NCBI GenBank assembly: GCA_945861435.1
Contig: CAMAUX010000017.1
Location: 1-64,000 of the forward strand
DNA length: 64,000 bases
From: Chthoniobacter flavus
Lineage (GTDB): Bacteria > Verrucomicrobiota > Verrucomicrobiia > Chthoniobacterales > Chthoniobacteraceae
Direction: 5' to 3'
In this document: positions 12,809 to 39,218 of the stretch, piece by piece
Layout of the letters: each line of letters begins with the position of its first letter
How positions within the stretch are numbered: position 1 is the stretch's first letter
The notes under the pieces: model-generated
What the model was told of the DNA's origin: nothing
The model's input: the letters and a program-made list of their open reading frames with translations, nothing else
Database searches by the model: none
Made by a program: the position numbers and the translations under genes

Positions 12809-13232
12809 AAGCGGACAGTGATCCCTTGAAACACGCACCGGATTGTCCGCCCCATGGCGCCATGAGGCACTCTTCCAGACGGCGCTGAACGCTGCGCTCG
12901 AAAAAGTCCGCGCAGATCGTCCACAGCACAGGGCGCACGGACGGGAAACCTCCCAGAAGCCGGGCCGCCGAGCTTCCCAGCCGATCCTCACATCGAGGCC
13001 GCGCAAGTTGGCACCCAGTATTGATGTTGAACGTGACCTCTCTCTCGAACCCCAGCCCCACCTCCCGCCGCCATCGCTAAACCTCACCAGATATTAGACG
13101 GAAAACGGCGTACCACCTGAAAAAAACAGCGTGGTGATGGATTCTCGTTACTTGAGATCACTACCAGCATGGCCATGATGTTCCGGGGTTCATCCCCGCT
13201 TCCCTCATCCGCAAAAGCTCACTGCCGAAAAC
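12809..13232. other. Intergenic region with a possible terminator stem
   Basis: No convincing gene is present. GCGGACA (12811-12817) and TGTCCGC (12844-12850) form a perfect 7-bp inverted repeat with a 26-base loop directly after the transporter stop; it could end that transcript, but no T-run follows. Short open frames on both strands (for example minus 12747-13061) match no family I recognise. The last 100 bp should hold the promoter of the DUF1592 gene at 13233; no clear -35/-10 pair is visible. Confidence 0.4.
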
Positions 13233-15677
13233 ATGAAGATCCGAAGCCGACTCGCTCAAACGCTCCTCTCCGCAAGCCTTGGCTTGGCCGCCGCCGCGCA
13301 CGCAGCCCAACCGTTTGAAGCATTCCTGGAAAAGCATTGCGTCCGCTGCCACGGTCCCGAGAAGGAAAAGGGGGATTTGCGCATCGACCGACTCTCGCGC
13401 GATTTCAAATTGGGCGCCGACACGCACCACTGGGCCGAGGTGATCGAACAGGTCAACTCCGGCGAGATGCCTCCAAAAAAGGAGAAAAAGCCGACGCAGG
13501 ACGAGATCGCCGCTTTTGTCACAGGCCTCGACTCCCTGATCAAAGAGGGCCGCGCAGCGCGGATGGCCGCCCGCCCGGCAGTCGCACACTACCGCCTCAG
13601 TCGTAAAGAGTATCAAAACACAGTCTATGACCTGCTCGGCGTGCGCTATGATCCCACAAAGCCGGGAGAACTGAACGAAGACACCCTCTGGCACGGAGTC
13701 GAGCGCATCGGCTCGCAACTGTCCCTCTCCCCCTCGCATGTGGACCGCTATTACCGCGCCGCGGAACTCGTGCTCGACCGCGCCTTCCCTGCCACCGCTT
13801 TGGGCGAGGCGCGCAAAGTCCTCAAAACCGCGGCCGAACTGCGCTACGGCGGCGGGAAGGACCAGCAGGTCGCCATGGACCGTTTCGGCATCAAGCGGCC
13901 GCTGCGCTATCTGCTGTTTCCCGGCACCACCCAGAACGCGCTCTCGTCCGGCTGGTTTGGGAAGTCGGGCCCGGAGCACAGCGGGCTCTACAAAGTCCGC
14001 CTCCAAGCCAGCGGCATCCGTCCGATCGGAGGCCAGCCTGCGCACCTGAGCATCGGCAAGCGAACCAGCGAGGAGACCGTGGACGGCCTCGTCGAATTCG
14101 ATGTCACGGCGCCGGAGGACAAGCCGCAGGTGTATGAGTTCGAGGTGTTCCTCGAAATGCCGGCTTCGCTCGACTTCTGCGTGGTGGCCACCGACGTGGT
14201 GGACCGCAGGGCGGGCGCGGCTTTCCGCGGTGCGCTCGGCAGCCGGAACGGTTACATCTTCACGCACAGCAGCGAGACTTTACTCCTGAATCCGAATGCG
14301 CCGCAGATGTTCGATGACAAAGGCAACGGTCTGTTCTCCACGGTGCTACTGGATTGGATCGAATGGGAGGGACCCCTGGTGTCCGAGGCGGAAAAATCGC
14401 GGCGCAAGGATGTGGTGCCGCCAGATGACGCCACGGCAGAGGTGGTGGCCGAACATTTGCAACGTTTCGCCGAGCGTACGTGGCGGCGGCCGGTGAAGCA
14501 GGAGGAACTCGCGGAATATCTGCAATCATTCCGCACGGAGCGCGAGGCGGGCGAGAAAATGGCCGATGCCTATCGCGTCGCATTGCAGGGCGTGCTGACC
14601 TCGCGGCATTTCATTTACATCGTCGAGGGCGCCCCGGTGACCCGCGAGCGTCTCACCGATTCGGAACTCGCCACGCGACTCTCGTTTTTCCTGTGGAGTT
14701 CGATGCCGGACGATGCGCTTTTCACCGCAGCCAAAGGAGGGAAGCTCAGCGGTGATGCACTCCAAAAGGAAGTGGACCGCATGCTCGCGGACAGCAAGGC
14801 CAGCCGCTTCATCGATGACTTCGCGCGACAGTGGATGCAACTGCACCGCGTGGGCATGTTCCCGCCGGACAAAAAACTCTACCCCAGTTACGACGCATGG
14901 CTCGAAGCCAGCATGCGCACGGAACCCGTGGAGTTCTTCCGCGAGATGTTCTCCAAAAACATCCCCATCGAGAGCTTCATCGATTCCGACTGGACCACAG
15001 CAAATCCGCGGCTCTGCGATTTCTACGGACTACCGGAGCCCACGAAGGGCGGATTCCAACGCGTGTCGCTCAAGCCCGAGAATCGTCGCGGCGGTCTGCT
15101 TACGATGGGCGCGGTGCTTGGGCTGACCTCGGACGGCACGCGGCATCGTCCGGTGCATCGCGGTGTCTGGCTCAGCGAAGTGGTTCTCGGCAAGACTCCA
15201 CCACCGCCACCGGCGAACGTACCCGCCATCGAACCCCCAACGCAGCAAAGCCCCAAAGCCACGCTGCGCCAAAAGATCGAGGCACACCGCGACAACGCGA
15301 ACTGCGCCGCCTGCCACGCGAAGATCGATCCGCTGGGCATCGCGTGGGACAACTACGATGCCATCGGCCAGTGGCGCACTCGTGAAAAAATCCCAGCGGG
15401 AACCGGCGAGGACCCCTTGATCAATCCCGCGGGTTCGATGCCCGATGGCCGCGCCTTCAAAGACGCCAACGAGTTCAAACAACGCCTCCTTGAAGACCGC
15501 GACAAGGTCGCCCACGCCTTCATCGAGCATCTCTGCACTTACGGCCTCCGCCGCCCCGTCGCCTTCGACGACCAGGAGGATCTCAAAGCCATCCAAGCCG
15601 AGGCGAAGAAGAACAGTTACCGGGTCAAAGACATCGTCCGCGCCGTGGCCCTGTCCGATCTCATGCGCAAACGCTGA
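13233..15677 (+). CDS. Exported DUF1592-family diheme cytochrome-like protein (set 1)
   Basis: The 814-residue product has a signal peptide ending near AHAAQ (about residue 25). A first c-type heme motif, CVRCH, is at residues 36-40. The DUF1587, DUF1595, DUF1592, DUF1588 and DUF1585 regions follow in order: [16 protein letters not shown] near 130, [16 protein letters not shown] near 415, [19 protein letters not shown] near 475, [20 protein letters not shown] near 635, and a second motif CAACH at 691-695 within [19 protein letters not shown]. These proteins are typical of Planctomycetes and Verrucomicrobia. They are thought to be periplasmic electron-transfer partners of DUF1552 proteins, but no reaction is known. 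The DUF1552 gene follows, separated by a small inserted gene. Confidence 0.88.
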
Positions 15678-15682
15678 CTCAT

Positions 15683-15769
15683 TGTTCGTGGTTCTTTGTT
15701 CGTGGTTCTTCGTTGCCCAGCGAGAAGCCAAAACTGCGAACCAACAACGAGGAACCAAGAACTAAGAAC
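15683..15769. repeat. Inverted heptamer-repeat arms before the S23-like gene
   Basis: The arm at 15683-15715 is made of GTTCNTNG-like heptamers (GTTCGTG, GTTCTTT, GTTCGTG, GTTCTTC). The arm at 15736-15769 is the reverse-complement type (GAACCAA, CAACGAG, GAACCAA, GAACTAA, GAAC). They can pair imperfectly into a hairpin with a loop of about 20 bases. It lies directly before the ATG at 15770. The same element recurs five more times down to 21655. Confidence 0.85.
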
Positions 15770-16144
15770 ATGAAAATATCACGCTTTGAAGACATTGAAG
15801 GCCGGCAGTTGGCACGGGAGCTAACGCGGCAGGTCTATGACGTTGCGATGCGCGGAGCGTTTGCGAAAGACTTTGGACTGCGAGATCAGATCACCCGTGC
15901 GTCGGGCTCGGCCATGCACAATATCGCCGAAGGATTCGACGGAGGGAGTAATGCCGAGTTCGTCAAGTTCCTGCGCTATTCCCAGCGTTCATGTTCGGAG
16001 GTTCAGAGCCAGCTCTACGTGGCTTCGGATCAGTCCTACATCTCTCAGGAGGAGTTTGATGGCATCTACAACCAATCCGCGCTCACCCATGCCAAAGTCG
16101 GCGGTTCTATCCGCTATCTCCTGACCACCCCCAATCCCCGCTGA
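15770..16144 (+). CDS. S23-type four-helix bundle protein
   Basis: The 124-residue product matches the four-helix bundle (S23/IVS-encoded) family. It has FEDIEGRQLARELTRQVYDV in helix 1, LRDQITRASGSAMHNIAEGF with the hallmark NIAEG turn in helix 2, NAEFVKFLRYSQRSCSEVQS in helix 3, and a C-terminal helix. Members are encoded in 23S rRNA intervening sequences of Leptospira and Coxiella and resemble the Avd accessory protein of diversity-generating retroelements. Their function is not established; nucleic-acid binding is suspected. Heptamer-repeat arrays lie on both sides, and the gene separates a DUF1592 gene from its DUF1552 partner, so it looks inserted. Choosing the ATG at 15770 gives the family N-terminus. 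Confidence 0.88.
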   Translation: MKISRFEDIEGRQLARELTRQVYDVAMRGAFAKDFGLRDQITRASGSAMHNIAEGFDGGSNAEFVKFLRYSQRSCSEVQSQLYVASDQSYISQEEFDGIYNQSALTHAKVGGSIRYLLTTPNPR

Positions 16145-16151
16145 CCCCTCT

Positions 16152-16170
16152 CCAACCAAGAACCAAGAAC
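16152..16170. repeat. Single heptamer-repeat arm
   Basis: Reverse-type units (AACCAAG twice, then AAC) lie between the S23-like stop and the DUF1552 start. Together with the array before the S23-like gene they frame it on both sides. Confidence 0.7.
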
Positions 16171-16174
16171 CCTC

Positions 16175-17551
16175 ATGAACTACCTCTCCCAATCCTGGCT
16201 CATCAACCGCCGCCACGCTCTCAAGGCCCTCGGCACTTTCATCTCACTGCCCATGCTCGAGTGCATGCTGCCGCTGCGCGCCGCGGAAAAAACCGCAGCC
16301 GCCACGCCCAAGCGCAGCGCCTTCATCTACCTCGCCAATGGCGTCCACTCGCTCAACTACCAGATCCTCAAGACGGGCAGGGATTACGAGTTCTCCCGAT
16401 CGCTGAAGCCGCTGGAGAAACATCGCGAGGTCATCACGCCCATCAGCGGACTGCATCACCCGGGCGCCCTCGGCCACCATCACAATTGCATCTCCGTCTG
16501 GCTCACCGGCGCCAAGATCGGGCCGTCGGATCGCAACACCATCTCCGTGGACCAGAAGATGGCCGAGCTCACCGCGCCGCATACGCGTTATAACTCAATG
16601 GAGGTCGCCCTCACGGGATCCTCGCTCGCATGGACGGCGGACGGCGTGCAGCTGCCCTCGCTGCGCCGTTGCAGCGAGATCTTCGCTTCGCTCTTCGAGG
16701 AACCGAAGGGCGGAAAAATGGCCCAGCGTCGCGCCTTGCGCCGGAAGGGCAGCGTGCTCGATGCCAACCTCGCGGAAGTCCGCCAACTCGAAAAAAAGAT
16801 GGGCGCAGAGGACAAGGGCCGCATGGAGCAATACCTCACCTCAGTGCGCGAGGCGGAAATCCGCACGCGACGCGCCGATGCATGGCTCGACACGCCGTTG
16901 CCCGTCGTCTCAGACGCCGACCGCAAGCGCACCAACCGCGACATCGCCGCCACCATGGCGGGCGATTATTTCCGCACCGTCTATGACCTCATGGTGCTCG
17001 CGTTTCAGACCGATGTGACCCGCGTCGCCACCTTCAGCCTCGGCGGCGAGGGCGATGCCTTTTCCATTCCTGAGATCGGCATCACCGAGTCGCGCCACCA
17101 GCTCAGCCATCACGGCGGCGATGCCGGCTACATGGAGAAGCTCACCAACTACGACACCTTCGCCATCGAGCAGTTCAGCTACTTCCTCACCCGCCTCTCG
17201 GAGACCAAGGACCTCGGAGGCAAGCCGCTCCTCGGCTCGACGATGGCACTCTTCGGCAGCGGCATGTGCTACGGCCACAGCCACGGCAACGCGAATCTCC
17301 CACTCGTGCTCGCCGGCGGCTCCGACCTCGGCCTGAAGCACGGCAGCCACATCGACTTCAACAAGGACGCCAAAGGCTTCGAAGGCTATGCGATCGGTGC
17401 CGACGGCGCGCTCACCTCCGCGCACTACCAAGTCTGCAGCCGCCCGGTGAACTCGGATGCCCGCATGAGCAACCTGCTGGCCCTCATGGCCCAGCGCATG
17501 GGCGTGGAAACCGACAAGTTCGGCGACAGCAATAAAGTCATCGCTCTGTAG
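16175..17551 (+). CDS. Tat-exported DUF1552 protein (set 1)
   Basis: The 458-residue product starts with a twin-arginine-type leader ([20 protein letters not shown]). The DUF1552 body follows: [73 protein letters not shown], and [20 protein letters not shown] leading to [11 protein letters not shown]1552 proteins are predicted to share the alkaline-phosphatase-like fold with DUF1501. They are nearly always encoded beside DUF1592 genes in Planctomycetes and Verrucomicrobia; their substrate is unknown. Tat export implies folding, perhaps with a metal, in the cytoplasm. The next gene, 11 bp on, is the first of four tandem paralogs of unknown function. Confidence 0.9.
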
Positions 17552-17555
17552 AAAC

Positions 17556-17684
17556 GTTCTTTGTGCCTGGTTCTTGGCTCTTGGTTCCCCGTTCGTGGTT
17601 CAGAGTGCTTGCGTGTTCGCTCGTCGTTCAAACGACTGCCTTCAGCGAACAACCAAGCACAAAGAACCAAGAACTAGGAACCAG
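17556..17684. repeat. Inverted heptamer-repeat arms at the start of paralog A
   Basis: The forward arm (17556-17602, units like GTTCTTT, GTTCTTG, GTTCCCC, GTTCGTG) and the reverse arm (17645-17684, units like GAACAAC, AAGCACA, AAGAACC, AAGAACT) flank about 40 bases. Nearly all of the element is translated as the signal peptide and linker of the gene starting at 17563. Confidence 0.75.
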
Positions 17685-18864
17685 CCTAGCCGAACCCTTC
17701 CGCCCCGAACCGGGCAAGTTCCCTCCCCTGGAAAAAGCGCATGCTTACCGAGGCGAACTCGTCTTCGTCGATCACGTCAACCGCCGCGGCAGCATCCGCG
17801 TGCAGGGAGGCGCCGAGGTGTTCTTTCAACATGTTCCGCAGCCCTTCGCAATGCTGCCTTATGGCGTTGTCCGCTATCACGGCGCACCCGCTGATCTGAG
17901 AAACATCCCGCTGGGGACCATGGTGCACGTCCGCGCCTTTCTCCCGCCGGACCCGGCGTTGTCCTCCGTGCCGATCGTCCAAAAACCCACGGTCGATCAG
18001 CCCGCCGAAAACCACGTCATTCTCCTCGAAGACGAGCCCAGCCACTGCCTGCGCGAGGGACTGCGTTGGAAGCTGAAGGAAGTGGATCTCGAGAAAGGCC
18101 AGACAAAGATCACAGCCACCCTCGAACCAAACGCCGGCGGCGACGGCAAGGCGGCCGAACACACCATCACCCTTGATGAAGGCACCCGCATCTGGCGGGG
18201 CCGCGAGTGTCTCGGAGTCGCCGACCTCATCGCCGAGGGCGCCTGGCCTGCGGACGGGAAAAAAGCGCTCGGCGGCCAGTCCGTCATTCTCGGACTCAGC
18301 TGGCTGCCAGCGGGCACATGGGAAAACCGGGTCGAGAACCAGTTTCACCTCACCGATCTCTGGCTCGATGACACTGCCATGCAGCGCTCCGCCAGCCAGC
18401 AGACGGGCATGCACAAATCCCTGATCCGCACCCGCCTCATGCCCGCCTGGGTGGATGCCGTCGAGTATGGAAAGTTCGGCCGGGCGACGGTGACGGCCAC
18501 CCTGTTCGGCGGCATGGACGAGTCTCTCTACGCGGATTTCAAAAAAGGGGTCGAGGGTGTGATGACTTCGGCGGAGAACACCTTGAAGCCTTGGTCTAGC
18601 ATCGTCAGTTCCTCGCACATCGCCTCGAAGGGCCGCATCCTCGAAGTCACCAAGACCGACACCGAGCCGCCCTTTGGAAGCAGCGGCATCCAGATCCGCT
18701 TCGAGACCGACCTCATCATCGAGGGCATCCGCCCCGGCAGGGTCGTCCGCGTCCGGCCCGCCACCTGGCCCCATGTGTCGGCCCCTCGGGAGGAATACCT
18801 CATCGACCATCGCTCCGGTCTCGATGACCGATTCCCGACCCCGGCCATTTTTCCGAAGTACTGA
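17563..18864 (+). CDS. Exported protein of unknown family, tandem paralog A
   Basis: No family is recognised. The 433-residue product starts at GTG 17563. Its N-terminal leader ([18 protein letters not shown]) and following polar linker are encoded by heptamer repeats. The conserved body begins [20 protein letters not shown]. It has blocks shared by all four copies: [99 protein letters not shown], and the terminal [10 protein letters not shown]. The pattern suggests repeated beta-rich domains exported to the periplasm or surface. This copy lacks the loop that paralogs B-D carry near residue 145. It lies 11 bp after the DUF1552 gene and probably shares its transcript. Confidence 0.8.
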
Positions 18865-18871
18865 TCCTCAC

Positions 18872-20263
18872 ATGAAACCGTTCTTCGTTCTTTGTTCTTT
18901 GTTCTTTGTTACTCGCTCTCGGTCTGTGCTCGGCCGGTCGTTGTTGGCCCTCGTTTTTTCGTTCGCCGTTCATCTGCCCGCCGCCAGCGAAGAACCAAAA
19001 ACGAAGAACCAAGAACAACGAACAACCAACCAAGAACAACGAACCAAGAACCAGGAACAACGAACCGAACCCTTCCACCCCGAACCCGGCAAGTTTCCGC
19101 CGTTGGAAAAAGCGCACGCCTACCGTGGTGAACTCGTCTTCGTGGATCACGCAAACCGCCGCGGCAGCCTTCGTGTGGAGGGCTCGGGCAAGTTTTATCG
19201 AAACGACCCGCACCCATTCGCCATGCTCCCGTATGGCATCGTGCGCTATCAAGGCGCCACCGCGGACCTGCGCGACATCCCGCTCGGTACGGTGATGCAT
19301 GCGCGGGCCTTCCTCCCGCCGGACCCGAAGACCTCCGCCGTCCCCGTCTTGCCAGTGGACAGCAAGTCGAAGGACGCCGGTCACTATCGCGGTACCGGCA
19401 TCTTCCCCGCCGAGAACCACGTGCTGCTGCTCGAGGACGAGCCCAGCCACTGCCTGCGCGAGGGACTCGTATGGAAGCTGCGCGAGGTGGTGATGAATCA
19501 GGGAGAGGGAACCATCACCGCCACCCGCGAACCCAAGCAAGGCGGCGACGCCAAGGCGCTCGAGGGCATGATGACCTTCGACTCCGCCACCCGCATCTGG
19601 CGCGGCAGCGAGCGCATCGGAGTTGCACGCATGATTGCCGAGGCAGCATGGCCCGCCAGTGGAAAGAAAAACCTCGGCGGGCAGCCCGTTCATCTCGGGA
19701 TCACTTGGAAACCTGCGCCGGGTGAAGGGTTGGGCGGTGCCTTCACCCGTTTTCACATCTCGGATATCTGGCTGGACGAGACCGCCATCGAACAGGCCGC
19801 CGAATTTCAGACCGAGACGCACAAAGCCTTCATCCGGGGCCGCTGGATGCCAGCCTGGGTGGATGCAGTCGAGTATGGCAAACTCGGTCGCGCCACCGTC
19901 ACCGCGACTCTTTTCGGCGGCATGGATCCCTCCCTTTACGCCGACTTCCAGAAAGGCGTGCAGGCACAAGCGAACGGAGCCGAGAACACCTTGAAGCATG
20001 CAGGCGGCCACTACGGCCCCGGCCACATCGCCTCCAGTGGCCAGATCACGGCCGTCACCAAGGCCGACGGGATAATCCCACTCGGCTCCAGCGGCATTCA
20101 GATCCAATTCGAGACCGACCTCATCATCGAAGGCATCCGGCCCACACGCGTCATCCGGGTCCGCCCGCAAAGCTGGCCCAGCAGGCAAGTGCCCCGCGAA
20201 GAATACGTCAACGACAGCCTCGCAGAGCGCTTCCCGACCCCGTCAATTTTTCCCAAATACTAA
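18872..20263 (+). CDS. Exported protein of unknown family, tandem paralog B
   Basis: The ATG at 18872, 7 bp after paralog A, is chosen; the longer open frame overlaps A. The signal peptide [13 protein letters not shown] with [20 protein letters not shown], and a long polar linker, are read from heptamer arrays. Three 21-bp repeats give three seven-residue units ([21 protein letters not shown]). The mature body from [20 protein letters not shown] matches A, C and D, with [37 protein letters not shown] and [10 protein letters not shown]. At 463 residues it is the longest copy, because of the linker and an added loop ([15 protein letters not shown]). Its C-terminal half resembles C and D closely. 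Function unknown. Confidence 0.82.
18881..19066. repeat. Inverted heptamer-repeat arms, fully translated, paralog B
   Basis: The forward arm at 18881-18912 (GTTCTTT repeated) encodes part of the signal peptide. The reverse arm at 18989-19066 (AAGAACC/AAGAACA units) encodes a repetitive Gln/Thr/Arg/Asn/Lys linker with a seven-residue period, as expected when 21 bp is three heptamers. The arms are complementary and could fold the 5' end of this message into a long hairpin. Confidence 0.85.
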
Positions 20264-20267
20264 TCCG

Positions 20268-21605
20268 ATGATGAAACCGTTCTCCGCTCTTTGTTCTTCG
20301 CTCTTGGTTACTCGCTCTCGGTCTGTGCTTGGCCCGTCGTTGTTAGCCCTCGTTTGTTCGTTCGCCATTCATCTGCCCGCCGCCAGCGAAGAACCAAAAA
20401 CCAAGAACCAGGAACAAGGAACCGAACCCTTCCGCCCCGAAGCCGGTAAGTTCCCCCCCTTGGAAAAAGCGCACTCCTACCGAGGCGAACTCGTTTTCGT
20501 GGACCATGCGACCCGCCGCGGCAGCATCCGCGTGCAAGGAGCGGGCACGTATTTCCGAAACTCCCCGCATCCTTTCACCATGCTCCCGTACGGCATGGTG
20601 CGCTACCACGGCGCACCGGCGGATCTTCGGGACATCCCTCTGGGCACCGTCATGCATGTCCGCGCCTTTCTCCCGCCGGACCCGAAGAACTCCTCCGTGC
20701 CGGTGTTGCCGGTCAACAACCGCGAGAAAACCGCGGGCTATAGTGGCTCCGGTATCGCGCCCGCCGAGAACCACGTCCTCCTTCTCGAAGACGAACCCAG
20801 CCATTGCCAGCGCGAGGGAACGGTCTGGAAGCTCAAGGAAGTGGACCTCAAAAACAACGCGGGGATGATCGTCGCCAGTCTCGAACCCAAGCAGGGCGCA
20901 GACGGCAAGGCCAGCGAGGAGAAGATGACCTTCGACGCCGCCACCCGCATCTGGCGCGGTCGCGAATGCCTCGAGATCGCGGACCTCATCACCGAGGGTG
21001 CATGGCCTGCGGAGGGAAAGAAATCCCTCGATGGCCAGACCGTCCTGCTCGGCATCACTTGGAGGCCCACTCCGGATGGCGTGTTTACTCGCTTCCACAT
21101 CTCGGACATCTGGCTCGATGAGGCCGCTTCGCAACGCGCCGCACACCTCCAAACCGAGGTGCACAAGGCTTTCATCCGCAGCCGCTGGATGCCCGCGTGG
21201 ATCGATGCCGTCGAGTATGGCAAGTTCGGCCGCGCAACGGTGACCGCGACTTTGTTCGGCGGCATGGATCCCGCCCTCTACGCAGATTTCAAAAAGGATG
21301 CCCCGGCCTTGATGAATGGAGCCGAGAGCACCTTGAAGCACACCCACGGCAGCTACGGCCCCGCACACATGGCCTCAAGGGGCTCTCTCTTGGATGCCAC
21401 GAAGTCGTCTGGAGAAGCGCCCATGGGCAGCAGCGGCATTCAGATCCGTTTTGAAACCGATCTCATCATCGAGGGCATCCGTCCCGGCAGAGTCGTCCGT
21501 GTGCGCCCCAAGGAATGGCCCCAGGTCGACCTGCCTCGTGAGGAATTCCTCGCAGACGCCCCTGAAGAACGTTTTCCAACTCCGGCCATCTTCCAGAAGT
21601 ACTGA
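20268..21605 (+). CDS. Exported protein of unknown family, tandem paralog C
   Basis: The 445-residue product starts at ATG 20268 (a second ATG follows directly), 4 bp after paralog B. The N-terminus ([20 protein letters not shown], then [20 protein letters not shown]) is almost the same as that of B but with fewer linker repeats. The mature body shows the blocks [73 protein letters not shown] and FPTPAIFQKY. Close similarity to B from the signal peptide onward points to a recent tandem duplication including the repeat element. No domain is recognised. Confidence 0.82.
   Translation: MMKPFSALCSSLLVTRSRSVLGPSLLALVCSFAIHLPAASEEPKTKNQEQGTEPFRPEAGKFPPLEKAHSYRGELVFVDHATRRGSIRVQGAGTYFRNSPHPFTMLPYGMVRYHGAPADLRDIPLGTVMHVRAFLPPDPKNSSVPVLPVNNREKTAGYSGSGIAPAENHVLLLEDEPSHCQREGTVWKLKEVDLKNNAGMIVASLEPKQGADGKASEEKMTFDAATRIWRGRECLEIADLITEGAWPAEGKKSLDGQTVLLGITWRPTPDGVFTRFHISDIWLDEAASQRAAHLQTEVHKAFIRSRWMPAWIDAVEYGKFGRATVTATLFGGMDPALYADFKKDAPALMNGAESTLKHTHGSYGPAHMASRGSLLDATKSSGEAPMGSSGIQIRFETDLIIEGIRPGRVVRVRPKEWPQVDLPREEFLADAPEERFPTPAIFQKY
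20286..20423. repeat. Inverted heptamer-repeat arms, paralog C
   Basis: The forward arm is 20286-20311 (CTCTTTG, TTCTTCG, CTCTTGG) and the reverse arm 20388-20423 (AAGAACC, AAAAACC, AAGAACC, AGGAACA, AGGAACC). It is a shorter and more degenerate version of the element in paralog B at the same place in the gene. Confidence 0.75.
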
Positions 21606-21620
21606 CGCGGGCTGAATTCT

Positions 21621-21655
21621 GTTCTTAGTTCTTAGTTCTTAGTTCTTGGTTCTTC
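21621..21655. repeat. Five perfect GTTCTTN heptamers
   Basis: Three GTTCTTA units, one GTTCTTG and one GTTCTTC run without interruption in the 148-bp gap between paralogs C and D. This is the cleanest array in the window and shows the basic 7-bp unit. No opposite arm is next to it, and it is not translated in an obvious gene. Confidence 0.92.
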
Positions 21656-21753
21656 GCCGACCCGCGAGACGTCGGGCAACCTGCGCGTCCTCATGCACAG
21701 CGCATCAGCGCGAAAATCGACCACTTCTGCGCCTGCAATAGATCCCTCCACCT

Positions 21754-23031
21754 ATGACACGCATCGCCTTTCCACTCTGGCTCGCGCCCCTGTGCCTCGG
21801 CCTTTCCCTTCTTGCCAATCCCGCCCCCGCTGCGGACGAACCGTTCCGACCCGAGACCGGAAAATTCCCCCCTTTGGAAAAGGCGCACTCTTACCGGGGT
21901 GAACTCGTGTTCGTCGACCATGCGAACCGCCGCGGCAGCATCCGCGTGGAGGGAAAGGGCCAGTTCCGTAGAAACAACCCGCACCCCTTCGTCCTGCTTC
22001 CCTACGGCATGGTCCGTTATCACGGCGCGCCGGCCGACCTCAGAGACGTTCCGCTCGGCACCATCATACGCGTCCATGCCTTTCTCCCGCCGGACCCCAA
22101 GACCTCCGCCGTGCCAGTGCTGCCGATCAACAACAAGACGAACACACAAGGCTTTCGCGACATCGGCACGGCACCCGCCGAGAACCACGTCCTCCTGATC
22201 GAGGACGAGCCCAGTCTCTGCCTGCGGGAGGGCAAAGTCTGGAAGCTCAGAGAGGTCGACCTCAAGAACCACGAAGGCCTGATCATCGCCAGCCGCGATC
22301 CGAACCAAGGCGGGACCGCCGAAGCGATCGAGGAAACGATGACCTTCGATGACGCCACCCGCATCTGGCGCGGCCGCGAATGCCTCGCAATCGAGGACCT
22401 GATCGCTGAGGGCGCCTGGCCCGCCAAGGACAAGAAATCCCTCGGCAACCAAGCCGTCCTGCTGGGACTCACGTGGAAGCCCACGCTGGGCGGTATTTTC
22501 AGCCGCTTCCACATCTCGGACATCTGGCTCGACGACGACGCCATGCAACGCTCCACCAACAACCAAACCAAGGCCCACAAAGCCTTCGTCCGCAGTCGCT
22601 GGATGCCCGCATGGATCGATGCCGTGGAGTATGGCAAGTTCGGGCGCGCCACCGTGACCGCGACCTTGTTCGGTGGAATGGCCCCCTCTCTCTATGCCGA
22701 TTTCAAGAAGGGCTCTCAGGCAATGGTCAACGGGGTCGAGAACACCTTGAAGCACACCGAGGGCGGCACCGCGGGCCCCTCACAAATGGCGGCACGTGGC
22801 CCCATCCTCGATGTCACCAAGACACCCGGCGAAGCCCCTCTCGGCAGCAGCGGCATCCAGATCCGTTTTGAGACCGACCTCATCACCGAGGGAATCCGCC
22901 CCACGCGAGTCGTCCGTATCCGTCCCGCGGACTGGCCCGACGTCCACGTGCCACGTGAGGAATACATCAACGGCGGCGGCTCCAGTATCGACGAACGATT
23001 CCCCTCCCCCGCCATCTTCCCAAAATATTGA
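21754..23031 (+). CDS. Exported protein of unknown family, tandem paralog D
   Basis: The 425-residue product starts at ATG 21754 with an ordinary signal peptide (IAFPLWLAPLCLGLSLLANP, cleavage after PAPAA). It goes straight into [20 protein letters not shown], with no repeat-encoded linker. It has all family blocks: [37 protein letters not shown] (with Leu for the His before Cys), [56 protein letters not shown] and FPSPAIFPKY. Because it lacks the heptamer linker it shows the likely ancestral gene form. It ends the array; the next gene is convergent. Confidence 0.82.
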   Translation: MTRIAFPLWLAPLCLGLSLLANPAPAADEPFRPETGKFPPLEKAHSYRGELVFVDHANRRGSIRVEGKGQFRRNNPHPFVLLPYGMVRYHGAPADLRDVPLGTIIRVHAFLPPDPKTSAVPVLPINNKTNTQGFRDIGTAPAENHVLLIEDEPSLCLREGKVWKLREVDLKNHEGLIIASRDPNQGGTAEAIEETMTFDDATRIWRGRECLAIEDLIAEGAWPAKDKKSLGNQAVLLGLTWKPTLGGIFSRFHISDIWLDDDAMQRSTNNQTKAHKAFVRSRWMPAWIDAVEYGKFGRATVTATLFGGMAPSLYADFKKGSQAMVNGVENTLKHTEGGTAGPSQMAARGPILDVTKTPGEAPLGSSGIQIRFETDLITEGIRPTRVVRIRPADWPDVHVPREEYINGGGSSIDERFPSPAIFPKY

Positions 23032-23128
23032 TACCGCGCCGGGAACCGTCTTCCGGCCGGGCATCTGCAACTGCAGCTGAATTCCCTGGGCCCACCGAAA
23101 ACCCTGCAAAAGGGAAATCGCTGTTCGG

Positions 23129-24094
23129 TCAGCTCGGCTTCACAAGAAACCCCGTCGGCACACCGCAGGCAGCTCCCAAGAGGCTTCCGACCACGGAACC
23201 TCGGTGGCAATTGTCGCCCCCGACCATGACGTTGGCGATGATTCCGGCGGTGAAATCCCGATGGTATTTCCAGACCAGATACAGAGCCGCAGGCATCGCA
23301 TCAGCAATGTAGCAGGCGGGACTGAACCGAGCTCCGACGACCTGCCCGTCTGGTTCATGCAGCCAAGAGTCGGACTTGTTTCCCGAGATCCAGTCCCCCG
23401 CCTCACTGCGAATCGCTTCGTGGACCGCCTCCCCTTCCGCCACCCTCCAGAGCAAGCGCACAAGCGTGTCGGCGGCTCTTAAAACGTGTTCATGGGCGTG
23501 GGTGAGCCCGACATGCTCCTTCACCACCGCCCGCAGTTCCGATAGCGACGCCCCCTCCAAGGCGGCACAAAGAGCCGGCACCGTGGCGAGCCCCCCAATG
23601 TGCTCATCGCTGATCCCGCACTTCCGCGGTCTCTTCCCCTGCGAGTACCGTGTGAAGAACGCCCGATGATACTCCTCCACATAAGTATCCGCATGCCATC
23701 CCGGCTCGAGCATCCGCGCAATATAACGCTCAAGCCATGCATCGGCGTCATAACCTCCACGCTCTTTCACAAAGGCGAAGAGCTCCCGGGCCAGCTTGAA
23801 GTTGAGCGTGTTCTCACCGGCCTTGAGGAACTGGTGATAATGAATCCCCCGCTGTCCCCAGTAACGCGCCTGCTCGCGGAGGATATCCCCTTGGGCGTTT
23901 AAGGCGTGGTATTCCGATCGCCACAGAATGCTTCCCGGGTGCGGATTCTTCGGCTCCAGAAAACGATCCACGATCCCGTAATCCCTTCGAAGGGCCGCCG
24001 TGTCGTAATACCAATGCACGGGCATCGCCAGCGCATCAGCGGCCAGCGAACCAAGGTACGCATCATTCCATCGCATGCTCGGATTCATATTCAT
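23129..24094 (-). CDS. ADP-ribosylglycohydrolase family protein
   Basis: The ATG at 24094 overlaps the stop of the ABC1 kinase gene (ATGA) and gives 321 residues; an ATG four codons further upstream is also possible. The all-helical ARH fold is suggested by the N-terminal YLGSLAADALAMPVHWYYD, corresponding to the GxxxGDALG region, and the C-terminal MVGGDNCHRGSVVGSLLGA, corresponding to the GGDTDT-type region. The second acidic metal ligand of the classic motif is replaced here (NCHRG), so the activity may differ from removal of ADP-ribose from proteins. It is the last gene of a TetR-ABC1-ARH operon. Confidence 0.83.
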   Translation of the reverse strand: MNMNPSMRWNDAYLGSLAADALAMPVHWYYDTAALRRDYGIVDRFLEPKNPHPGSILWRSEYHALNAQGDILREQARYWGQRGIHYHQFLKAGENTLNFKLARELFAFVKERGGYDADAWLERYIARMLEPGWHADTYVEEYHRAFFTRYSQGKRPRKCGISDEHIGGLATVPALCAALEGASLSELRAVVKEHVGLTHAHEHVLRAADTLVRLLWRVAEGEAVHEAIRSEAGDWISGNKSDSWLHEPDGQVVGARFSPACYIADAMPAALYLVWKYHRDFTAGIIANVMVGGDNCHRGSVVGSLLGAACGVPTGFLVKPS

Positions 24095-25479
24095 TCCGTG
24101 ATCCAAGCGGGGCGCTCCACCCGCACACGGGCGCGAAGCCGCCCAAGCAGGCTGTAGAGGCCGAAGAAGGCCCGGTTCACGTAAATGGTGTCGGGCGAGC
24201 CCCGCTGCCCCCGCATGGCGCGCAGATGATCCGCCCTCCGGTTCTCTTCCCCAAGCTCGTAGATCGCCTTGAGAAAGGAGGGATCTCCGAAGTCAAAAAT
24301 CCCCTCGCGAAATGGCCTGGCGAGCAACTCCAGCCAGACCCTGCAAAGACTCGTAACCATCGCAATCTGCTCCGAACTATCCTCGGGCAGGATCACATCC
24401 AAGTCGCGCAGAGCTTCCACCAACAAACCAGGATCCCGCTCCAATCGCGGATCGAGAAACCGGAACTGCTTCCGATAGAACTCCCGCGAGATCTTCTTGG
24501 TGCAACCGAAATCCAGAACCCAGAGCTCACCGTCTTTCACAAGAAAATTGCCGGGATGCGGATCGGCGTGAAAGACCAGCAGGTCGTGCACCTGATGGTG
24601 GTAGAAATCCCAAAGCGCCTGACCGATCCGGTCGCGCTCCTCCTGCGTAGCGTCCCCGTCGGCAAAGCGGTCGAGTGCCATTCCATCAATCCACTCGGAG
24701 GTGAGGATCTTCCCTGTGGAAAGGTCGGCGTGGTATTCCGGGAACCGCACTCCCTCGAGATGCGCGGACGCTTTCGTTAACTCCACCGACCTCGCAAACT
24801 CATGCCTGTAGTCCGTCTCCTCCAGCAGCCGCGTCTCGACCTCGCGAAAGTAGGAATCCACATCAGCCTCGCGCAGCCCGAGAATCCGGAGGGCGATCGG
24901 CTTCACAAGCCGAAGATCGCTTTTGAGGCTCTGCGCGACACCCGGATACTGCACCTTCACCGCATACTCACGCCCCTTGTGCCGCGCCCGGTGAACCTGC
25001 CCGATCGAGGCACCGTGGGACGCCTTTTTCTCGAAATGATCGAAGAGCGCCTCAGGCCCCTTGCCGAACTCTCGCTGAAATGTCCGCACCACCAGGGGGT
25101 AAGAAAGCGGCGGCACCGAGGACTGCGCCTGCGCGAACCGACGCGCGTAGGCGACCGGGAGCAGGTGCTTGTCGATGCTGAGCATCTGGGCAAGTTTGAG
25201 CGGCCCTCCCTTGAGTTGGCTGAAGGTGTCGTAGACCGTCTCCGCATTCTTCTCGTCCAGCTCCTCCCGCAGCTTGCGCCGACTCTCCGCATCCCTGCCC
25301 GCGACCATCGCACGGCCGTAGTGCTTCAGATAATTGATCCCGACGCGCGCTCCCGCCCCTCCGAGTGCGGCCATGCGGCCCAAAGCCCCGGCACGTATCT
25401 TCTCCTGATCTTTCTTCGTAATCCTGCGCGTGCCCTGTGACGCCCCCTCGCTTCCCTCACTCCCCTTGGCCTCCTTCAC
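24091..25479 (-). CDS. ABC1/UbiB-family atypical kinase
   Basis: The GTG at 25479, 4 bp after the TetR stop, is chosen (462 residues); the longer frame overlaps the regulator. The family core is present: an Ala-rich loop GASIGQVHRARHKGREYAVK with the ATP-binding Lys, then HADPHPGNFLVKDGELWVLD with the catalytic Asp and Asn, followed by FGCTKK. The N-terminal KxGQ-type motif reads KLAQMLSIDKHLLP, with Ala in the place of Gly. UbiB/COQ8 proteins are ATPases that support lipid-quinone synthesis. Whether this one does so is unknown; no ubi or men gene is near. It is coupled to the ARH gene downstream. Confidence 0.88.
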   Translation of the reverse strand: MKEAKGSEGSEGASQGTRRITKKDQEKIRAGALGRMAALGGAGARVGINYLKHYGRAMVAGRDAESRRKLREELDEKNAETVYDTFSQLKGGPLKLAQMLSIDKHLLPVAYARRFAQAQSSVPPLSYPLVVRTFQREFGKGPEALFDHFEKKASHGASIGQVHRARHKGREYAVKVQYPGVAQSLKSDLRLVKPIALRILGLREADVDSYFREVETRLLEETDYRHEFARSVELTKASAHLEGVRFPEYHADLSTGKILTSEWIDGMALDRFADGDATQEERDRIGQALWDFYHHQVHDLLVFHADPHPGNFLVKDGELWVLDFGCTKKISREFYRKQFRFLDPRLERDPGLLVEALRDLDVILPEDSSEQIAMVTSLCRVWLELLARPFREGIFDFGDPSFLKAIYELGEENRRADHLRAMRGQRGSPDTIYVNRAFFGLYSLLGRLRARVRVERPAWITE

Positions 25480-27971: not shown

Positions 27972-29267
27972 ATGCACTCCCATCCCTCCTATTCACAGCC
28001 TCCGCTCAGTCGCCGCCAATTCCTCCGTGCGGGCTCGGCGGTGCTGGCTCTGCCATTTCTCGAAGCACTCGCGCCACGACTGGCTCGTGGTGCATCCGCG
28101 CCACCGCCAAAGCGCATGGTGTGCATCATGACGAACACCGGCCTGCTGGCGGACAACTTCTGGCCGAAGGAAACGGGGCGGAGCTACGCGCCGTCGCGCT
28201 ATCTCGCCCATCTGGAGCAGGTCCGCGGGCGTTATTCGGTGATGAATGGCCTCTCGCACCCGGATAATTCCGGCGGACATGTGGTGGAGAAAAGCTTCCT
28301 CACCGGCGCGCGGTTTCCGTCGTCCGCCGTTTTCAAAAACAGCATCTCGGTCGATCAGCTTGCGGCGGAATCGCTCGGTCATCACACGCGCTTTCCCTTC
28401 CTCGCACTCGGCGTGAACGGCCAGCACGACGGGCTGCTCTCAGTCTCGCGCGATGGCGTATTCATCCCGCCCGAGCTGAGCCCGGCCAAGGTGTATCAGC
28501 GCCTCTTCACCCCGGACACGGCAGCCGAAAGCGAGCAGCGAATGCGCGAGATCGGCCAGCGCGTGAGCACCCTCGACTTTGTGAATGACAAAGCGAAGCG
28601 CCTCTCGCAAAGCCTCGGCGAGGAGGACCGAGCGCGGCTCGACCAGTATCTCACCTCGGTGCGCGAGTTGGAGCAGCGCCTCGAGCAGGCGCGGGTGTGG
28701 CAGCAGCGAGAAAAGCCACGCGTCACCGTGCCTCAGCCGCAGGACATCTTGGACAACACGCAGGACGTGGATCGCGCACAGCTCATGTACGACATGACCC
28801 TGCTCGCCCTCCAGAGCGACAGCACGCGCATCGTCACGCTCTATCTGAATCCTCTCGAGATCCTCGTGAAACTGCCCGGTGTGAACGACCGCACGCACAC
28901 GCTCACGCATCACGGCAACGAGCCGGAGAAACTGGAACAACTCGCCAAAGTCGAAGAAGCAGGACTGAAGAATCTCGGCCGCTTCCTCGCGGGGCTCGCT
29001 GCGGTGAATGAAGGCGGAAGCAGCCTGCTCGAAGACACGGCGGTGCTCTTTGGCTCGAACATGTCGAACGGTAGCAACCACTCAAACGTAAACCTGCCGG
29101 TCGTCCTCGCAGGCGGACGCTTCAAGCACGGCCAGCACATCCAGTTCGACCTGAAAAACAACACACCGCTCTGCAATCTCTTCGTCTCCATGCTCCAGCA
29201 CATGGGCCTCGAGCGCGATGCCTTCTCCTCCAGCACGGGAACTCTTACCGGACTGGAAATGGCATGA
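27972..29267 (+). CDS. Tat-exported DUF1552 protein (module 1)
   Basis: The 431-residue product has a canonical twin-arginine leader (LSRRQFLRAGSAVLALPFLE). The DUF1552 body follows: KRMVCIMTNTGLLADNFWP, YSVMNGLSHPDNSGGHVVEK, SISVDQLAAESLG, YLTSVRELEQRLEQARVW, and LLEDTAVLFGSNMSNGSNHS leading to LPVVLAGG. It lies 79 bp after the anti-sigma-like gene, and its stop overlaps the DUF1592 gene start (ATGA). In this set DUF1552 comes first, the reverse of sets 1 and 3. Confidence 0.9.
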   Translation: MHSHPSYSQPPLSRRQFLRAGSAVLALPFLEALAPRLARGASAPPPKRMVCIMTNTGLLADNFWPKETGRSYAPSRYLAHLEQVRGRYSVMNGLSHPDNSGGHVVEKSFLTGARFPSSAVFKNSISVDQLAAESLGHHTRFPFLALGVNGQHDGLLSVSRDGVFIPPELSPAKVYQRLFTPDTAAESEQRMREIGQRVSTLDFVNDKAKRLSQSLGEEDRARLDQYLTSVRELEQRLEQARVWQQREKPRVTVPQPQDILDNTQDVDRAQLMYDMTLLALQSDSTRIVTLYLNPLEILVKLPGVNDRTHTLTHHGNEPEKLEQLAKVEEAGLKNLGRFLAGLAAVNEGGSSLLEDTAVLFGSNMSNGSNHSNVNLPVVLAGGRFKHGQHIQFDLKNNTPLCNLFVSMLQHMGLERDAFSSSTGTLTGLEMA

Positions 29268-31972
29268 GACGCGGTGTTGGCATCCTTCTGCTCCGCGCAC
29301 TTTTCATCTCACTCCCGGCCACGGTCAGTCCGGCCGCTGAGGAGCTGCGCGTTTATCTCGAAGCGCATTGTTTCGACTGCCATGACTCGACGACCAAGAA
29401 GGGCGGTCTCGATCTCGAAGCATTGCCGATGCAACTCGATGCGCGCGATCCATTCGCGAAATGGTCGCTCGTGCACGACCGCATCGCCGCAGGTGAAATG
29501 CCGCCGAAGTCGCGACGCGAGCGCCCTTCCGAAAAAGAAAACGCGGACGCGCTGAAGCTCCTCGACAACCGACTCCACGACGCCGATGCCGCGCACATTG
29601 CAAAGACCGGACGCGCGCTGTTCCGCCGCCTCTCCGCGCAAGAATACGAGAACGCGTTGCGTGACCTCCTGCATCTGCCCGGATTGCGGATCAAGCATCT
29701 GCTACCCGAGGACGAGCGTCGCCACGGCTACAACAAAATCGGCCAGGCGCTCGATCTCTCGAACGTGCATCTGAACCAGTTCATGGATGCGGCAGACCTC
29801 GCCCTCACCAGCGCCATCGCAACCCGCAGCACACCGCCGCCAGTGCGCCGCGTGCGATTCGGCGGAGCCGCGATCCCGGATGCGATGACCTGGATGGCGC
29901 ATGGCAGTGCCGTGCCGTTGAAGGATAAGCAATACGATCCCGTGGTGCCGCTGCCGTCTCCCGACGACGATCTCAATGCGAACCAGGAGTTGAAGAAATC
30001 GCGTTACGCCACGCTCGGCAGAGTGCTCCGCGATTACCCGCACGCCGGCGGATACTTCACCGGCGCGACACATCGCCCGATGATTTTTTCACTGGAATAC
30101 GCGCCCATCTACGCGGGCGAATATCGCATCCGCACCTCCGCGTGGGGCTTCTGGTGGGATCGCGGCAAGGTGGAGCCGCCGCATCGCGATGAATCCTTCG
30201 CGCTCACCGCGTGGCTGCCCTCCGACGGGCCGCGCTTCGTGCATTCGCCGTCGCGCTGGCTCGGGCTCTTTGATGTGTCGTCACTCGAAAGCCGCGTGCA
30301 TGAATTCACCGGCTGGTTCGATGTGAATGATGAACTGGTCTTCGACATCGGCACGCTGAACGGCCACGAAAAAACCACCGGTCGTTTCCCCGGCGACGCG
30401 AAGGGCGCATGCACCGTCTATTCTGGTCCGGGCATCGCGCTCGATTGGGTGGAAGCGGAAGGCCCCATCTTCGATCAATGGCCGCCGCGCAGTCACACAG
30501 CCATCTTCGGCGATCTGCCGATTCGCTCGCTGGAGAGGGATACCGACATCATCCCGCCGAAACGCACGCCCGTGCGGCAGCGCTCGCATTCGAGCATGGC
30601 TCGACCAACCAACGCTTCGATTCCCAAGGAAGAAAGCGAACCGCCGCTGGAGAGCGTCTTCACCGCACATCCGCAGGAGGACGCCACGCGCCTGCTCGCG
30701 CAGTTTTTGCCGCGCGCGTTTCGTCGTCCCACCACGGCGGATGAAGTGCAGGGTTATGTGCAGATCGTCACGCGCGAGTTGGAGCGCCACGCGTGCTTCG
30801 AGGACGCCATGAAAGAAGCCTGCAAGGCCGCACTGTGCTGCCCGGATTTCCTTTTTGTCGGTGGCGATACGATCGCCGATGCAATGACATCGCGCCCTCG
30901 ACTCACCGACCGCGCCCTCGCCGAGCGCCTCGCGCTTTGGTTTTGGAACAGCGTGCCCGACGAACAACTCCTTGCGCTCGCCAACGAAGGTCGCCTGCAT
31001 CTTCCCGAAACCCTCAAGCACCAGACCGATCGCCTCCTCGCCGATCCGCGATCGGATCGGTTCATCGCCGACTTTACCGACCAGTGGCTCGACCTGCGCA
31101 AGATCGACGCCACCCAGCCCGACCTGCGGATCTATCCCGAGGCCCGCGAGCACTTGAAGCACAGCATGATCGATGAGACGCGCGCTTATCTGCGCGAGTT
31201 GATCACGCACGATCTCAGCGTCACGCATCTCGTAAAATCGGACTTCGCAATGCTCAATCAAAGCCTCGCCATCCACTATGGCGTGCCCGGTGTCACCGGC
31301 TGCGGTCTCCGCCGCGTTCCCTTGCCTCACGACACTCCGCGCGGCGCGTTCATCACTCAGGCCGCTGTCTTGAAAGTCACTGCCAACGGCACCACCACGT
31401 CTCCCGTTACTCGCGGCGCGTGGATCAACGAGCGCATCCTCGGAAACATCATCCCACCACCTCCCGCCGGAGTGCCCGCGATCGATCCCGACACGCGCGG
31501 CGCGACGACCATTCGCGAGAGTTTGGAAAAGCACCGCGCAGACACGCGCTGCGCGGGTTGCCACGCCAAGATCGATCCGCCCGGCTTTGCATTGGAGAGC
31601 TTCGATGTCATCGGCGGCTTTCGGAATCGCTACCGCTCGCTCTTTACCGGCTCCCCGCTGATGGAGTTCCATTTCCCCACCGGCTGGGACCCACGCGTGC
31701 GGCTCAATCAATCAGTAGACCCTTCAGGCCAACTCCCGAGTGGCGAGCCCTTCCAAAACCTCACCGGCTTCCAATCGCTGGTCCTTCGCAATCCCGATGC
31801 TCTCGCTGCGAACATGGTCCGCCAGCTCCTCATGTATGCCACCGGCTCCGAGCCCCACTACTCCGACCGCCGCGACGTTGGCCGCATCCTCGCGCAAACA
31901 AAGCCGAAGAACCACGGCCTCCGCTCCCTCATCGACGCGATCGTGCAGAGCGAGCTGTTTCGCACGAAGTAA
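29264..31972 (+). CDS. Exported DUF1592-family diheme cytochrome-like protein (module 1, copy 1)
   Basis: The 902-residue product starts in the ATGA overlap. The signal peptide runs to about residue 25 (ALFISLPATVSPAAE). Heme motif CFDCH lies at 36-40 and a second motif, CAGCH, at 763-767 in CAGCHAKIDPPGFALESFD. DUF1587, DUF1592, DUF1588 and DUF1585 regions are recognisable (LSAQEYENALRDLLHLPGLR, LPRAFRRPTTADEVQGYVQI, LTDRALAERLALWFWNSVPD, TANGTTTSPVTRGAWINERI). A central stretch of about 250 residues after residue 190, containing RIRTSAWGFWWDRGKVEPP and VHEFTGWFDVNDELVFD, is an added domain seen in neither set 1 nor set 3. It has a close tandem copy 27 bp downstream. Confidence 0.9.
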   Translation: MRRGVGILLLRALFISLPATVSPAAEELRVYLEAHCFDCHDSTTKKGGLDLEALPMQLDARDPFAKWSLVHDRIAAGEMPPKSRRERPSEKENADALKLLDNRLHDADAAHIAKTGRALFRRLSAQEYENALRDLLHLPGLRIKHLLPEDERRHGYNKIGQALDLSNVHLNQFMDAADLALTSAIATRSTPPPVRRVRFGGAAIPDAMTWMAHGSAVPLKDKQYDPVVPLPSPDDDLNANQELKKSRYATLGRVLRDYPHAGGYFTGATHRPMIFSLEYAPIYAGEYRIRTSAWGFWWDRGKVEPPHRDESFALTAWLPSDGPRFVHSPSRWLGLFDVSSLESRVHEFTGWFDVNDELVFDIGTLNGHEKTTGRFPGDAKGACTVYSGPGIALDWVEAEGPIFDQWPPRSHTAIFGDLPIRSLERDTDIIPPKRTPVRQRSHSSMARPTNASIPKEESEPPLESVFTAHPQEDATRLLAQFLPRAFRRPTTADEVQGYVQIVTRELERHACFEDAMKEACKAALCCPDFLFVGGDTIADAMTSRPRLTDRALAERLALWFWNSVPDEQLLALANEGRLHLPETLKHQTDRLLADPRSDRFIADFTDQWLDLRKIDATQPDLRIYPEAREHLKHSMIDETRAYLRELITHDLSVTHLVKSDFAMLNQSLAIHYGVPGVTGCGLRRVPLPHDTPRGAFITQAAVLKVTANGTTTSPVTRGAWINERILGNIIPPPPAGVPAIDPDTRGATTIRESLEKHRADTRCAGCHAKIDPPGFALESFDVIGGFRNRYRSLFTGSPLMEFHFPTGWDPRVRLNQSVDPSGQLPSGEPFQNLTGFQSLVLRNPDALAANMVRQLLMYATGSEPHYSDRRDVGRILAQTKPKNHGLRSLIDAIVQSELFRTK

Positions 31973-31999
31973 GCTCTTATCCGTCCATCCTCCCCAACC

Positions 32000-34693: not shown

Positions 34694-34716
34694 GAGCGCG
34701 GACCTGTTGCCTTTGA

Positions 34717-34738
34717 GAGGCTTCCCCCTCGAAGCCTC
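34717..34738. terminator. Stem-loop between convergent genes
   Basis: GAGGCTTC (34717-34724) and GAAGCCTC (34731-34738) form a perfect 8-bp stem with a 6-base loop in the 71-bp gap between two convergent genes. A CCGTTTTAGG stretch follows about 13 bases later. It could stop transcription from both sides, but the T-run is short and distant. Confidence 0.45.
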
Positions 34739-34764
34739 GCCCCACAGCCGTTTTAGGTTGAGGA

Positions 34765-36162: not shown

Positions 36163-36199
36163 AAAATATTTCGGTAAATGAGTTCGCCGGGGGATTACC

Positions 36200-38836: not shown

Positions 38837-39218
38837 TTTTACGGGACCCAATTGCCCCGCCTCTGTTTGCCGTCGCTTACGCAGCAGAGTTGCGCTGTCG
38901 CGAAGCGCGCAGGAGGGATTATTGATTTTTGCCGAGCGGAACATGGGGCGGTCGTCGCCAGACTCACCCCGCGTCCATCCAAAACTTAGGCTCAACGGTG
39001 ATAAACTAATTCCATTTCATTCCCCGCTTCTCGTACGCGACACCCGACGGCGCGCCCACCGGCAGCACCGTTTCGCCGCGGCTCAACTTTTCCTCCAAGT
39101 CGGCGCCTTACAGCAGACGTTGGAAACTTCCGATTTCCCAAAACCGTCAGATTCCGTGCCGGTGCGTTCTGGGGTCTCAACACGCGCCGTTCAGAACCGA
39201 GTCTTTCCCGCTCCCGGA
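38837..39218. other. Intergenic region upstream of DUF1592 set 3
   Basis: No gene, repeat or RNA is recognised. It lies between the toxin stop and the DUF1592 start on the minus strand and should contain the promoter of set 3. I see no clear promoter elements or palindrome. Confidence 0.3.

Follow-up and report, generated by a model that had tools for sequence, protein, structure and literature searches.

Gene organization of the locus

We analyzed a 64,000-nucleotide stretch of DNA (hereafter, the window) from Chthoniobacter flavus (GenBank assembly GCA_945861435.1, contig CAMAUX010000017.1, positions 1 to 64,000 of the forward strand), in which four tandem genes, here called copies A to D, occupy positions 17563-23031. 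An initial annotation, made from the sequence without database searches, described them as four copies, 425-463 codons long, of an unrecognised exported family that follows one DUF1592-DUF1552 set. Copies A to D are indeed four intact open reading frames (ORFs) on the same strand, and Pfam identifies the two preceding genes as DUF1592 and DUF1552. The proteins carry a signal-peptide motif, in keeping with export, and constitute an unnamed exported protein family; none of the libraries searched contains a named family to which it belongs. The operon contains the following features.

13233-15677, plus strand: DUF1592-type protein of 814 amino acids (Pfam: PSCyt1 cytochrome c, PSD3, PSD5, PSD4, PSCyt3, PSD2)
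15680-15773, plus strand: heptamer hairpin 3′ of the DUF1592 stop codon (array scan; GTTCTTG-type arm 15680-15714, CAAGAAC-type arm 15732-15773)
15770-16144, plus strand: gene of the 23S_rRNA_IVP (four-helix-bundle) family, 124 amino acids (PF05635, E 4.8e-27)
16154-16174, plus strand: CAAGAAC array immediately 5′ of the DUF1552 start (array scan)
16175-17551, plus strand: DUF1552 (HXXSHH) protein of 458 amino acids (PF07586, E 1.7e-82)
17563-18864, plus strand: copy A, 433 amino acids, GTG start within the 5′ heptamer arm, mature from about 17689
17559-17685, plus strand: leader hairpin of A, encoding signal peptide and linker (arms 17559-17600 and 17644-17685)
18872-20263, plus strand: copy B, 463 amino acids, mature from about 19064
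18876-19069, plus strand: leader hairpin of B (arms 18876-18917 and 18986-19069)
20268-21605, plus strand: copy C, 445 amino acids, mature from about 20418
20282-20426, plus strand: leader hairpin of C (arms 20282-20316 and 20385-20426)
21617-21658, minus strand: single-arm GTTCTTA/G array between C and D (array scan)
21754-23031, plus strand: copy D, 425 amino acids, ordinary repeat-free signal peptide, mature from about 21832; the copy used for structure prediction

The start codon of copy A lies 12 bases after the stop codon of DUF1552. The most likely starts of B and C are the ATG at 18872 and position 20268, respectively; the mechanical ORF of B begins earlier, at 18674. The small 23S_rRNA_IVP-family gene between DUF1592 and DUF1552 was absent from the initial annotation. 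An Rfam search of 13000-23300 gave no useful match, and a scan for sigma-70 promoters and terminators returned no more than the shuffled level.

The four proteins can be aligned end to end over their mature length, with 63-71% identity for A, B, and C against D; in a separate comparison of all four, the mature proteins were 66-72% identical to each other. Exact blocks including the C-terminal FP-P-IF-KY recur in all four, as the initial annotation stated, while LLEDEPS is exact in three and reads LIEDEPS in D. The absence of a recognised domain was borne out by every search. Pfam and NCBIfam gave no match for A to D at E 10, and 111 members of the family gave only chance Pfam matches (E 0.18 or worse) and no PSCyt or PSD domain. 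PHROGs returned a single meaningless match (E 0.3) and PADLOC none. A family profile found nothing among PDB sequences (best E 0.6), and across the PDB sequence searches with the family profile, with DUF1552, and with DUF1592 nothing useful emerged, the best match being a cytochrome c (E 0.018). Among openly available papers, we found no description of the family.

Distribution and operon linkage

Relatives were collected by scanning one genome per species with two peptide patterns of the protein, which gave 269 relatives. The best 80 of the 269 yielded 78 loci (L009-L086), which are the basis of the locus counts given here; neighbouring genes played no part in finding them. The records are labelled mostly as Verrucomicrobiota and Planctomycetota and include the isolates Verrucomicrobium sp., Brevifollis gellanilyticus, and Limnoglobus roseus; some labels of metagenome-assembled genomes among the relatives (Klebsiella, Akkermansia muciniphila) are plainly doubtful. 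A family member is present in 17 of 57 genomes of the window's kin and in 7 of 288 in a wider draw of the phylum. The family is therefore widespread but patchy.

A DUF1552 gene lies directly 5′ of the first copy in 60 of the 65 clusters with at least 1.7 kb of upstream sequence, and both DUF1592 and DUF1552 are upstream in 44 of the 50 with at least 4.6 kb. In the five exceptions to the former count (L022, L024, L025, L055, and L071), DUF1552 is located 0.9-2.5 kb upstream, with another ORF intervening. We considered hidden broken copies of the family in these wide gaps, and rejected them because tblastn found none. In 39 of the 60 clusters, an in-frame start codon of the family gene overlaps the DUF1552 stop codon (ATGA), an arrangement as in translationally coupled subunits. 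The 59 complete clusters contain one copy (17 clusters), two (34), three (6), four (1), or five (1). The initial annotation had raised the question of whether homologs elsewhere adjoin DUF1552/DUF1592 genes; they do, and the linkage is consistent.

Within the genome of the window, a search for PSD3 gave 38 matches, a few of which are pieces of one gene. Among the DUF1592 loci of this genome, the family occurs at the window and at two sites on another contig, where the copies are distant (34-35% identity), and at none of 29 further stretches, so that it marks an operon subtype. In one subtype of the DUF1592 (cytochrome c)-DUF1552 operon, the family regularly forms the third component; it is an accessory of an already known, unexplained kind of operon.

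Relationships among the four copies

The closest relative of each window copy in another genome has a protein identity of 88% (A), 91% (B), 82% (C), or 79% (D). Each copy is nearer to genes of other genomes than to its neighbours, which indicates four old paralogue lineages. The initial annotation took B and C for the most recent duplicates, a claim that the mature parts do not support: the cores of B and C are 75.1% identical in DNA, less than those of C and D (77.6%), the closest pair, and the near-identity of B and C is confined to their leaders (91.8% DNA identity). Copying of the leader between B and C after the genes had diverged would explain this most simply. We also mapped the slot of each gene in its operon, defined as first after DUF1552 or after another copy, on a tree of 141 genes. 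The slot required 18 changes, compared with 44.8 for shuffled labels (minimum 37). The copies are thus ancient lineages that have been retained, which is what one would predict for distinct subunits.

Predicted structure

The AlphaFold2 prediction for mature D drew on 111 sequences taken exclusively from the window and the relative loci. The model has a predicted local distance difference test score (pLDDT) of 87.4 and a predicted template modelling score (pTM) of 0.88; for the first two barrels alone, the values are 88.9 and 0.85. It consists of a CusF-like OB barrel, a second OB-like barrel, a barrel of the riboflavin synthase/ferredoxin reductase (RIFT) type, and a floppy C-terminal tail with the motif RFPxPxIFPKY. 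Among solved structures, the predicted barrel 1 comes closest to CusF and SilF (against CusF, Foldseek probability 0.96-0.99 and VIA Z 8.0, root mean square deviation [rmsd] 2.9, 72 residues aligned), and single-stranded DNA-binding protein (SSB) and cold-shock domains rank close behind. Barrel 2 was superposed on the second OB fold of Deinococcus radiodurans SSB, in one row, with Z 6.2, rmsd 3.4, and 78 residues. For barrel 3, VIA gave Sen1 (Z 9.0, rmsd 2.9, 96 aligned), soluble methane monooxygenase (sMMO) reductase (8.1, 3.2, 92), and riboflavin synthase (7.8, 3.2, 81), so the sMMO reductase score is level with those of non-flavin barrels. Foldseek matches of the major histocompatibility complex type were discarded as wrong, with a template modelling (TM) score of about 0.1. 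Such barrel scores indicate the type of barrel, neither descent nor function.

The tail (residues 382-399) has a pLDDT mostly below 50. In the core subfamily, the R, F, P, P, I, F, P, and Y of its motif are each conserved at 90% or more, and the motif occurs in none of 10 distant members inspected. A segment that is conserved yet unstructured has the usual look of a docking segment.

Two long relatives located after DUF1552 genes, at L216:3374-5545 and L218:3629-5440, match the first and third barrel regions twice each. On these matches, they represent fused rather than tandem copies.

Proposed role of the family

We propose that A to D are exported, non-catalytic adaptor or scaffold subunits of one planctomycete-type cytochrome/DUF1552 operon subtype, a reading to which we give about an even chance. 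The DUF1592 cytochrome and DUF1552 proteins would be made first, followed by one to five barrel proteins; co-production is supported by the gene order and the stop-start overlap. The barrel proteins would be exported, as the signal motif indicates, probably via the Sec route, and in members with inverted arrays would lose the signal peptide between the two arms. Outside the cytoplasm, they would pack with one another and around the DUF1552 and DUF1592 proteins, with the tail RFPxPxIFPKY as a docking strand. The old, diverged copies would then provide one complex with distinct subunits and would not serve to raise dosage. The signal peptide and the first mature residues are encoded in many members by an inverted pair of heptamer arrays. 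Complex formation, the non-catalytic role, and tail docking are the parts of this proposal that we infer.

Several observations weigh against it. His30, His119, Cys130, His227, His249, and several Trp residues are conserved in nearly all members, which also fits a catalytic or metal site. The mean conservation of the tail (0.73) is lower than that of the whole protein (0.81). Foldseek searches of the PDB with the whole model and with the first two barrels gave no match reaching E 0.001, and common barrels can by chance attain Z-scores of the size obtained here. Finally, cluster L060 has a core family member beside a divergent DUF1552 gene, with no DUF1592 within view.

The main rival is that the barrels are binding modules for a polysaccharide or another substrate of the DUF1592-DUF1552 enzymes, with diversified copies for different ligands. 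It holds this place because PSCyt genes are tied to carbohydrate use by their neighbourhood: they are often located near sulfatases, and some carry carbohydrate-binding modules (PMC5615132). The tandem, diversified copies, one to five per cluster, would also suit such a role. Against it, the family matches no carbohydrate-binding family in Pfam or NCBIfam, and its conservation is spread along the whole chain instead of giving way to variability at a ligand face. We regard substrate binding as unlikely.

More doubtful is a periplasmic metal chaperone or metal buffer of the CusF/SilF kind that supplies or protects the cytochrome partners. The copper ligands of CusF are two Met, one His, and one Trp. 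The family resembles the periplasmic Cu/Ag chaperones CusF and SilF in the shape of barrel 1 and in export, the operon encodes a cytochrome c protein, and His residues and one Cys are conserved. In contrast to CusF and SilF, there are three barrels instead of one, and the Met ligands have no conserved counterpart, the highest in barrel 1 being Met60 in 0.56 of the 111 sequences. OB barrels also match each other widely, as the closeness of SSB and cold-shock domains illustrates, and we consider a chaperone role improbable.

It is still less probable, and in our estimate highly so, that the family is a flavin/NAD(P)H oxidoreductase feeding electrons to the DUF1592 cytochrome, with the flavin in barrel 3. 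This barrel does resemble the flavin adenine dinucleotide-binding barrels of sMMO reductase, flavohaemoglobin, and ferredoxin reductases, and shares its shape with riboflavin synthase. Unlike those enzymes, the family has no nucleotide-binding domain, since the chain ends approximately 30 residues past barrel 3 in the low-confidence tail, and it has no sequence similarity to them; Sen1 and riboflavin synthase match barrel 3 equally well.

Heptamer repeats in the leaders

The leaders of A, B, and C are built from arrays of the unit GTTCTTG or its complement CAAGAAC, scored with a cut-off of 16. As the initial annotation reported, every copy except D has a linker encoded by the repeat; that reading had the repeat as a source of the linker only, while the repeat also encodes the signal peptide, and does so recurrently in the family. 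All ten arrays of the window are within this operon. A looser pattern gave 23 matches in the window, compared with 0.22 expected, 22 of them in 15688-21652. Across the whole genome, 11 of 21 exact heptamer matches fall in this operon, and arrays at the cut-off are absent from the further 29 DUF1592 stretches of this genome.

The 78 loci contain 122 arrays, of which 93 are within 230 bases around the mature start, a zone of 33 kb in total or 3% of the bases. Of the remainder, 18 are upstream of DUF1552 (69 kb), 5 follow a family gene, and 6 are in the other 1.01 Mb; the near-copies L011 and L012 are counted twice in these totals. Both arms occur in 30 of 141 distinct genes, the 5′ arm alone in 22, the 3′ arm alone in 5, and neither arm in 84. 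The best score is at least 13 in 78 of the 141 leaders and at most 12 in all 141 control stretches of the same length taken inside the mature genes. A scan of reversed sequence found 42 arrays at the same cut-off and is unusable as a control, because CAAGAAC reads identically backwards and the reversed sequence thus contains the arrays themselves. Of the 57 related genomes, 17 have the family and 40 lack it; an exact heptamer match is present in 11 of the former and 6 of the latter. The arrays that we looked at outside the family are single and mostly intergenic.

The presence of arrays required 43 changes on the tree, compared with 44.9 for shuffled labels. This lack of phylogenetic signal indicates rapid gain and loss of arrays at a constant site.

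Whichever of the three frames is read, the heptamer yields one and the same repeating heptapeptide, (VLGSWFL)n in one direction and (QEPRTKN)n in the other, with no stops. Since seven is not a multiple of three and the unit is stop-free, an inverted pair gives a hydrophobic signal and a hydrophilic linker in any frame. We inspected 25 of the 30 two-armed leaders. Their mean Kyte-Doolittle values are +0.5 to +2.3 for the 5′ arm and -1.3 to -3.1 for the 3′ arm. A loose script located a signal-peptidase-like A-x-A/S site just 5′ of the 3′ arm in 24 of the 25, and ATAVS was recognised by eye in the remaining one (L056).

RNA folding of the leaders gave z-scores of -6.9 for A, -3.6 for B, -0.8 for C (not special), and 0.25 for D. 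All five leaders folded from other loci had z-scores of -2.2 to -5.4, and the hairpin after DUF1592 (15678-15775) had -4.8. A role of the arrays or hairpins in the mRNA, between the cistrons of the operon, is possible.

We tentatively regard the hairpin as a self-renewing signal-peptide cassette that has been repeatedly gained, lost, and copied between paralogues (as in B and C) at one site of one family in two phyla, and that possibly also forms RNA hairpins between cistrons; we place this reading somewhat below an even chance. The least probable of the alternatives is that A to D are phase-variable surface proteins toggled by heptamer slippage in the 5′ coding region, as in neuO: heptamer arrays with a unit length that is not a multiple of three do open several tandem paralogues, and yet all 23 array genes whose start is fixed by the DUF1552 stop overlap (ATGA) are in frame, which argues against switching of the NeuO type and leads us to reject it at the level of assemblies, which show the majority state only. 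The arrays themselves are short, comprising 2-11 units, and imperfect.

The gene of the 23S_rRNA_IVP family located in the DUF1592-DUF1552 spacer is flanked by arrays in the window, L044, L058, L061, and L066. In the window and the 78 loci together, arrays lie beside 5 of 8 such genes, and the divergent IVP genes of L022, L046, and L064 have none. The genome of the window has two other IVP genes, in stretches (L203 and L204) without an array. We do not claim that the repeats and the IVP gene form one element resembling an intervening sequence.

Two single CAAGAAC arrays in other genomes, L207:9890-9924 and L210:2416-2457, directly precede the starts of non-family genes. At L071:7601-8540, an ORF in the slot of the first copy opens with a heptamer leader, and its remainder has no similarity to the family; this may perhaps be a leader left behind after an insertion.

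Other features of the window

Directly after copy D, a gene of the ADP-ribosylglycohydrolase family (PF03747) is encoded on the opposite strand at 23129-24106. In the region 27972-38995, a second DUF1552 gene is followed by two similar DUF1592 genes in tandem, at 29264-31972 and 32000-34693; the minus strand carries a third DUF1552-DUF1592 pair at 34765-38995. At the edge of the window, positions 1-173 consist of 14.4 copies of a 12-base tandem repeat, GCGGGCGGTGTT.

Discussion

The operon in the window carries both genes of the known PSCyt1-3/PSD1-5 (DUF1592) and DUF1552 systems. Genes of PSCyt2 and PSCyt3 usually adjoin two families of unknown genes (PMC5615132). The present family differs from the PSCyt and PSD proteins as a third component that has none of those domains and accompanies one operon subtype only.

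Parts of the repeat architecture were known before. Heptamer direct repeats of the sequence TAACTGA precede start codons (MacGregor 2015, PMC4679880). They resemble the present arrays in being short heptamer arrays often located just 5′ of start codons, whereas our repeats have another sequence and other hosts, form inverted pairs, and are within the signal-peptide codons of one family. The palindromic YPAL and Rickettsia elements are translated in frame, and in YPO1552 the element supplies part of the signal peptide (Delihas, PMC2229807), the single case in which we found a repeat-derived signal peptide reported. These elements likewise encode part of a protein through a palindromic repeat, but they are fixed mobile sequences in single genes, whereas in the present family the leader is rebuilt from a simple heptamer across many genomes of two phyla. 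The gene neuO of Escherichia coli K1 likewise has a heptanucleotide array in its 5′ coding region. Of 64 genomes, 42 have neuO out of frame (PMC13001214), unlike the present arrays, which show no out-of-frame state and are often inverted pairs. The inverted arrays, present in 30 of the 141 distinct genes, match the terminal inverted repeats of mobile palindromes of the miniature inverted-repeat transposable element type. PARCEL repeats are a different coding palindrome (PMC2996958). Recurrent inverted heptamer leaders confined to one family across two phyla were not found described in openly available papers.

The leaders illustrate that a simple DNA repeat can supply a working export signal regardless of frame, which is a route to new signal peptides. 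Verrucomicrobiota and Planctomycetota hold many DUF1592/DUF1552 operons, and a specific, structured third partner provides a handle for recognising, tagging, and purifying one subtype of them.

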